NCBI RefSeq assembly: GCF_000185505.1
Contig: NZ_GL622359.1
Coordinates: forward strand, 647,308-711,307
Reading direction: 5' to 3'
Length of the DNA: 64,000 nt
DNA from: Pseudoramibacter alactolyticus ATCC 23263
GTDB taxonomy: Bacteria; Bacillota; Clostridia; Eubacteriales; Eubacteriaceae
Part shown: positions 24,109-25,783 of the stretch, one piece after another
Position numbering within the stretch: position 1 is the stretch's first letter
How the letters are laid out: each line of letters begins with the position of its first letter
Program-made: the position numbers and the translations under genes
Notes under the pieces: generated by a model
Told to the model about the DNA's origin: nothing
Databases searched by the model: none
Seen by the model: the letters and a program-made list of their open reading frames with translations, nothing else

Positions 24109-24528
24109 ATGATTCAAAAACTCTACCAAAAATATCGCGAAATCATCAACTATTTGGTCGTCGGTGTTCTGACGACCATTGTCAGCCTCGGCGTGTATTA
24201 TCTTTGCGTTGCCACTTTCCTCAATCCGGACAACGGCTTGCAGCTCCAAGCCGCCAATGTGATTTCTTGGATCGCCGCCGTAACTTTTGCCTACTTCACC
24301 AACCGCAAATATGTTTTTGCCAGCCGAAATCCCAACATGATGCGGGAGGCATTCGCTTTCTTTCTTTCTCGCGTCAGCACCTTATTGATGGACATGGGCG
24401 TGATGTTTTTAGCTGTAACCCTCAGCGGTATGAACGACAAAATCGCCAAACTCATCTCTCAGGTTGTTGTTACCATCGCTAATTATATTTTCAGTAAATT
24501 CTTCGTTTTTAAGAAAAAAAATTTTTAA
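24109..24528 (+). CDS. GtrA family membrane protein
   Basis: 139-residue protein with four hydrophobic segments of the GtrA/DPMS3 family: INYLVVGVLTTIVSLGVYYL, NVISWIAAVTFAYFTNRKYVF, FFLSRVSTLLMDMGVMF and VVVTIANYIFSKFFVFKKK. The FxxNRKYVF and NYxxSKFFVF signatures are clear. GtrA proteins are thought to flip polyprenyl-phosphate-linked sugars across the membrane for glycan decoration. The only plus-strand gene of the glycan region. It is a candidate partner of the GtrB-like enzyme at 29486-30409. Confidence 0.88.
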   Translation: MIQKLYQKYREIINYLVVGVLTTIVSLGVYYLCVATFLNPDNGLQLQAANVISWIAAVTFAYFTNRKYVFASRNPNMMREAFAFFLSRVSTLLMDMGVMFLAVTLSGMNDKIAKLISQVVVTIANYIFSKFFVFKKKNF

Positions 24529-24536
24529 AGGCACAC

Positions 24537-24627
24537 AAAAAGGCGTTTGGAAAGGATTGTACCGACCTCCCAATCGTTAGATTTTGGTCTAACTTTTGGG
24601 GGTCACATCAGATCCAAGCGCCCTTTT
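24537..24627. terminator. Terminator interrupted by a mini-element
   Basis: The arms AAAAAGGCGTTTGG (24537-24550) and CCAAGCGCCCTTTT (24614-24627) pair and carry A- and T-runs, forming a bidirectional terminator between converging gtrA and the EpsG-like gene. The loop holds a 53-bp inverted-repeat element. Without it and one copy of GAT, the loop would be only AAAGGAT. Confidence 0.65.
24558..24610. mobile_element. 53-bp inverted-repeat mini-element flanked by GAT repeats
   Basis: Starts TGTACCGACCTCCCAA and ends TTTTGGGGGTCACATCA. The two halves are imperfect inverted repeats (GACCTCCCAATCGTTAGA against GACCCCCAAAAGTTAGA) separated by a few bases. It begins with TG, ends with CA and is bordered by GAT at 24555-24557 and 24611-24613, as expected of a three-base target duplication. 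The termini look like those of IS3/IS150-group insertion sequences from memory. There is no transposase; it would be two abutted ends or a minimal non-autonomous derivative. Confidence 0.5.
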
Positions 24628-24631
24628 AATC

Positions 24632-25783
24632 TTACCAATGCCGAAGATTTACAATAAACTGCCGCATCATCTGCGACGTATATGGATAAATTTGATTCTC
24701 TTTGAGATACACCGTTCGAAATCCCCAGATCGTCAGCAATAGCAAGCCCAGAAGCAGCGTCCAAACGATCTTTTCTTTTCCCTCGCTGATGCGAATCAGC
24801 CGCGCATATGCTACGCTTTTATACATCCCAAAGTACAGACTGATGCGATACAAGAAAAAGACGATAAGCCGCAGCTGAAAGATCACCACTTCTAAAACCA
24901 GCAGAAAAATATAAAAACTTCCCTCCGAAGGGCCTCGCGCATCATCAAAAGTCAAAAATGCATCGCGCTTGTGCAAGGATAAAATGATTCCCGGCAGCCA
25001 AAAAATGCAAATCATGAGGTTGGATTTGATCGTCGCCATTTTAAAGACATCGCTGAGATAAAGCTGGTATTTCGGCGGCAGCATTCCCCAGGCCAGAGCA
25101 TGGGCCAGCAGCGGTTTGTAAAAAATCATCGCCAGCGCCACAACGCCGACAATGGCCACCTTGACCCAAATCCGCTCCCAACGCTTAAAAATCAGATAGA
25201 GCACCGGCAGTGCCACACCGATGACCGCCGTATAATGAAACAACACCGCCGCAGCAAAGGTTAATCCATAAGGCCAATATCTTTTCTCAAGGAAAAAGTG
25301 AAAGCCCCAGAAAAGAAAACCCATGGCAATGTATTGACGCATGAGGTTCAGACTATCCCCGTAAAACAAACATAAAAAACACAGCCAACCCATCGGCAGT
25401 GAAATTTCATCGCGATAGGCATAAAGTCCCGCCATGAATAATCCATTGATCAGCAGGCTAATCACAAAATAGAGCCAATGGGGATTGGCCGTCACCCGTG
25501 TGATCAGGAAATTGAGCAACACATAAAGCGGCTCCACGGTTTTGATCTGGGACTGAATCAGCCATTTCAGATCGTGATTTTGCAGGCACCAAAAAAACTG
25601 CGGATTGCCGTAATAATGAATGTCGGTGCCGATGGTGTCATCGCGAAGGGCAGCTAAAACAGCCGAGAGCACGGCTGCCAACAAAAGGATCATACCGCCT
25701 CGTATTTTATTCTTTTTTTTAAGCTGTTTTTCGCCAATCCAGCAAATCCCAAAGGATAAAGCAAAACAAAAAAGATAAATCAT
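24632..25783 (-). CDS. EpsG family polysaccharide protein
   Basis: 383-residue membrane protein with about ten hydrophobic segments. EpsG signatures: ALRDDTIGTDIHYYG near residue 46 and LNLMRQYIAMGFLFWGFHF near 145. EpsG of Bacillus subtilis is a biofilm exopolysaccharide polymerase-like protein. Last gene of the minus-strand block that starts at the acyltransferase/GT2 genes, followed by the interrupted terminator. Confidence 0.83.
   Translation of the reverse strand: MIYLFCFALSFGICWIGEKQLKKKNKIRGGMILLLAAVLSAVLAALRDDTIGTDIHYYGNPQFFWCLQNHDLKWLIQSQIKTVEPLYVLLNFLITRVTANPHWLYFVISLLINGLFMAGLYAYRDEISLPMGWLCFLCLFYGDSLNLMRQYIAMGFLFWGFHFFLEKRYWPYGLTFAAAVLFHYTAVIGVALPVLYLIFKRWERIWVKVAIVGVVALAMIFYKPLLAHALAWGMLPPKYQLYLSDVFKMATIKSNLMICIFWLPGIILSLHKRDAFLTFDDARGPSEGSFYIFLLVLEVVIFQLRLIVFFLYRISLYFGMYKSVAYARLIRISEGKEKIVWTLLLGLLLLTIWGFRTVYLKENQIYPYTSQMMRQFIVNLRHW

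Follow-up and report, generated by a model that had tools for sequence, protein, structure and literature searches.

In a stretch of 64,000 nucleotides from Pseudoramibacter alactolyticus ATCC 23263 (contig NZ_GL622359.1; hereafter the window), a bidirectional terminator between converging genes has its arms held apart by a short palindromic sequence that begins with TG and ends with CA. The locus thus raises the question of what this sequence is and how it came to lie in the loop of a terminator. The original prediction was that a mini-element had landed there and duplicated its target. The features concerned are listed below by window position; G and L numbers in the text are our handles for genomes and loci.

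24109 to 24528, plus strand: GtrA-like gene (PF04138, E 1.5e-26), ending just ahead of the terminator.
24537 to 24551, no strand assigned: left arm and A run of the bidirectional terminator, AAAAAGGCGTTTGGA, from sequence and folding.
24555 to 24557, no strand assigned: the left-hand GAT of the duplicated 3-bp target, from sequence.
24558 to 24610, no strand assigned: the palindromic TG...CA mini-element of 53 bp with exact boundaries, TGTACCGACCTCCCAATCGTTAGATTTTGGTCTAACTTTTGGGGGTCACATCA; left tip TGTACC, right tip ACATCA (TGATGT).
24611 to 24613, no strand assigned: the right-hand GAT of the duplicated 3-bp target, from sequence.
24613 to 24627, no strand assigned: right arm and T run of the bidirectional terminator, TCCAAGCGCCCTTTT, from sequence and folding.
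24632 to 25783, minus strand: EpsG-like gene (PF14897, E 1.2e-35), converging on the same terminator.

The strand that carries both terminator and insert has a predicted fold of -42 kcal/mol (z -7), and none of 200 shuffled sequences folds as well. Upon removal of the element and one GAT, the remaining 39 nt are a terminator hairpin of -17.2 kcal/mol (z -4.9), whose predicted loop has five bases, not the seven that had been expected. In the predicted structure, the mini-element forms its own hairpin, stacked on the terminator stem, and termination is predicted to survive. That the insertion is non-disruptive is thus a prediction from the fold. The element has no coding capacity, has complementary arms and is flanked by a duplicated GAT, all of them features of MITEs. 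To our knowledge, 53 bp places it among the shortest transposon derivatives known.

In the search of its own genome, the 53-bp element occurs once, and a query with the transposase of the related IS gave no match there; the same query, as a positive reference, gave matches with E < 1e-40 in four of the other genomes searched. An autonomous IS with matching ends is thus present in other genomes, while none was found in that of the window. The element pattern with ends of the TG..CA type is found in 11 of the 391 genomes of the class, the window's own included, and the reversed-pattern control in 0 of 391. In genomes of the family and order, the core of the mini-element recurs at 86-97% identity, in one genome at nine contig ends. 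Furthermore, a scan of public genomes gave at least 117 stretches, mostly from Firmicutes among the matches listed, and two mini copies per genome were found in G316, G440 and two Selenomonas genomes. The single copy and the lack of a transposase match in the element's own genome speak against a mini-element of a mobile IS group, but solo copies abound in other genomes.

Some solo copies depart from this form. Those at L114 and L115 are solo left ends whose sequence runs past the inner arm and breaks off within the T run (GGTATTTT), not at CA; they are still placed between matching terminator arms, and perhaps reflect another route to solo ends. At L162, a second palindrome (TGATGTGAGCCCAAAAAGTCTAACTTTTTGGGCTCAC) lies directly downstream of the solo copy and is perhaps the end of another copy.

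The nine contig ends carrying the core are left ends of a full-length IS: TGTACCGACCCCCAAAAGTTAGACCAAAAATCTAACGATTGGAGGTCGGTATTTTT, followed by the ATG that opens OrfA. More generally, the core of the mini-element is identical or near-identical to the left ends of full IS copies. These are ~1.54 kb long, occur widely among Firmicutes and have TG...CA ends (right-end tips, e.g. TGAGGTGACCCC or TGATGTGACCCC) and 3-bp duplications. By six-frame reading of a 1539-bp copy (L192), OrfA and OrfB appear as two overlapping frames, with OrfB open in the -1 frame of OrfA. OrfB matches NF033516 above the cut-off (E 1.9e-74) and contains PF00665 (rve), the IS3-type DDE integrase core. The full-length relative is a member of the IS3 family: the integrase core, the frame layout and the TG...CA ends with 3-bp duplication all fit. 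The prediction of IS3-type ends is accordingly upheld, as full-length IS3-family elements carry the same ends, and elements with related ends are plentiful in other genomes. The description of the mini-element as two inverted ends needs amendment: it is a TG...CA palindrome, but it is more than joined ends, as it contains the left-end hairpin of the IS.

Within this hairpin, the inner arm repeats the outer end in inverted orientation and the right end in direct orientation. The hairpin buries a GGAGG in 81 of 98 left ends of the full IS, usually 11 nt upstream of the OrfA start (e.g. L192:841-895), which looks like protection from translation on transcripts that enter from outside. Protection of this kind is known for IS10 and IS50. 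In the same full copy (L192:841-2379), a palindrome (TGCGTAACA...TGTTACGCA) lies just inside the right end and may be the IS's own terminator.

Taken together, the insert is very probably a non-autonomous, MITE-like derivative, 53 bp in length, of the ~1.54-kb IS3-family element, whose transposase enters terminator loops and duplicates 3 bp. The following is read from sequence: the mini-element has its ends and hairpin in common with the IS, solo as well as full-length copies are flanked by terminator arms and by duplications, and one syntenic terminator carries no insert. The transposase of the IS group would insert into the loops of intrinsic terminators with duplication of 3 bp; the mini form may have arisen at the left-end hairpin, through a deletion or a template switch, and would have been moved in trans by a transposase that is now absent from the window genome. 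As the mini-element is itself a hairpin, its insertion would lengthen the terminator stem rather than break it. In a full copy the terminator arms are set 1.5 kb apart, and for this reason the stem should not be preserved.

Movement of mini forms can be followed best in two other genomes. In G316, two different terminators each contain a 54-bp mini, identical in sequence between the two, and at least four full-IS left ends share the hairpin of these minis, tip excepted; for one of the two sites, a relative has the syntenic terminator without the insert. Two terminators of G440 likewise contain minis, which agree in their interior. These observations support repeated landing of mini forms; as an alternative, the minis of both genomes may have arisen by independent local deletions. 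The latter option leads to a different account of the window copy, namely: a full IS entered the window terminator and later lost its transposase genes in place, so that the insert is an immobile scar and not a mini that moved. Full copies do occupy the same kind of site, and the inner arm of the left-end hairpin, being a direct repeat of the right end, makes a local deletion easy; one such event would drop both genes and leave an element of ~53 bp. In addition, the tips of the window copy are of both kinds: TGTACC is identical to the left tip of the IS in G172 and G412, and TGATGT to its right tip there. However, the window copy carries its hairpin flipped with respect to the tips, whereas a single deletion yields the unflipped arrangement, as seen in L151, and thus does not explain the window copy. 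In many other solo copies both tips are of the left type, and a palindrome-driven template switch might account for these and for the flipped hairpin alike. Since movement is also the simpler explanation of identical minis at two G316 terminators and of same-interior minis at two G440 terminators, we regard loss of the genes in place as rather unlikely, though it keeps appreciable weight.

The sites where the proposed MITE-like derivative and its full-length relatives lie were analyzed by pairing of their flanks. The combined solo set has 28 distinct sites, that of the window included. Mean flank pairing is -18.4 kcal/mol, as compared with -8.4 kcal/mol for permuted flanks (-19.5 vs. -9.2 kcal/mol in the 17 solo copies of the first scan); 15 of the 28 pair as strongly as the top 1% of permuted flanks or better, and 10 do so when random positions within those loci serve as the reference. 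In roughly one third of the solo copies the flanks pair weakly, which counts against the proposed explanation. Duplications of 3 bp flank 11 of the 28, where 1.4 are expected and no more than 7 were obtained in any of 5000 permutations. Among 20 full copies, 13 pass the 1% permuted-flank level and 14 have 3-bp duplications.

The complete genome of G172 holds ten IS copies at eight distinct sites, three of the copies being in a repeated segment. If one inversion between two of the copies is allowed for, every one of the eight sites has terminator arms on both sides of the IS and a 3-bp duplication. When the eight left flanks were each paired with all eight right flanks (an 8 x 8 table), every left flank found a single partner that was both the strongest pairing of its row and the sole three-base match. 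Two further observations concern the arrangement of these copies. L199 and L232 (G172:C1, near 1481699 and 2795434) have swapped right flanks, with GGA/GGA and TCG/TCG matching only across copies; the exchange points to a ~1.3 Mb inversion by recombination between the two. L203, L205 and L206 (G172:C1, 1918840, 1926153 and 1933466) have identical flanks at a period of ~7.3 kb, i.e. a triplicated segment or an assembly repeat.

It could be argued that the IS group has no preference for terminators and that selection purges insertions elsewhere, which leaves survivors in intergenic terminators, and sites between convergent genes are indeed safe. Selection for intergenic survival alone should, however, scatter insertions around hairpins and not direct them into loops, whereas all eight distinct G172 sites lie within the stem-loop itself, with matching arms; this account is therefore improbable. 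The idea that all 90 bp belong to one long native terminator hairpin, with repeats and GAT by chance, agrees with the folding of the whole 90 bp into one long hairpin but is scarcely credible, given that other, unrelated terminators with different arms contain the inner 53 bp with precisely these boundaries, that the 53 bp also occur as IS left ends in other genomes, and that the reversed control is zero.

The insertion of a mini-element with IS3-like ends into a terminator, as first proposed for the window, is thus supported by independent solo copies elsewhere and by full-length IS3-family elements with the same ends. The 3-bp duplication is supported by the excess of duplications among solo copies and by their presence in full-length ones, and the terminator as landing site by the solo and full-length copies in terminators and by the syntenic uninserted terminator of another solo copy. 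The terminator site of the window is not conserved in congeners: in three of them, no recognisable homologous terminator lies downstream at the same gtrA locus, and no empty site was found there for the window terminator, which counts against the explanation given above. For the Acetobacterium tundrae copy, a search for an empty site gave genomes that align to one flank alone.

Transposable elements that target hairpins are already known, namely: IS1397 and ISKpn1 (PMC1525189), IS1272 (PMC4923244) and class C introns (PMC3522654). IS1397 and ISKpn1 resemble the present group in that their IS3-family transposases select extragenic palindromes (PMC1525189). Those palindromes belong to particular repeat families (REP/palindromic units), whereas here the arms vary by site and the common feature is a terminator hairpin with A and T runs. 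IS1272 and TnSha1 (IS1182 family) also insert into hairpins without a primary sequence consensus, many of them terminators (PMC4923244). They belong to another transposase family, and IS1272 deletes part of the hairpin without duplication, while the present group enters the loop and duplicates 3 bp. The 3-bp duplications do not fit membership in the IS1182 family or identity with IS1272. Bacterial class C (IIC) group II introns likewise land at intrinsic terminators (PMC3522654), but they are retroelements that insert downstream of the stem-loop with neither transposase nor duplication. Bacterial MITEs share with our element the form of short, gene-less, inverted-repeat IS derivatives with target duplications (PMC10969869); the element here, at ~53 bp, is essentially one end hairpin, and the text of that review of bacterial MITEs does not mention IS3. 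The IS1447 group is of the IS3 family, Firmicutes-enriched, and makes 3-4 bp duplications, as here, but its ends begin with TA and its copies lie in or near genes and pseudogenes (PMC6211511), in contrast to TG...CA ends and terminator sites. Membership in the IS1447 group was rejected, as the ends are TG...CA rather than terminal 5'-TA.

No report of IS3-family targeting of terminators was found in the literature searched, which was mostly openly accessible, with ISfinder outside its scope. Hairpin targeting as such is known; what appears to be new is that a group within the IS3 family targets intrinsic terminators and has ~53-bp derivatives. As a tentative extension, it is possible that a large IS3-family group of the Firmicutes recognises the form of the terminator hairpin, as extruded DNA or in the termination complex, and not its sequence, and that each ~53-bp derivative is a complete mobile hairpin in itself, with which the terminator continues to function after insertion. 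The finding offers a testable case of a target chosen by structure instead of sequence. It also carries a warning that long composite 'terminators' may be insertions, and it gives a simple landing rule for a common IS group in Firmicutes, by which each insertion can be checked through the complementarity of its arms and its 3-bp duplication.
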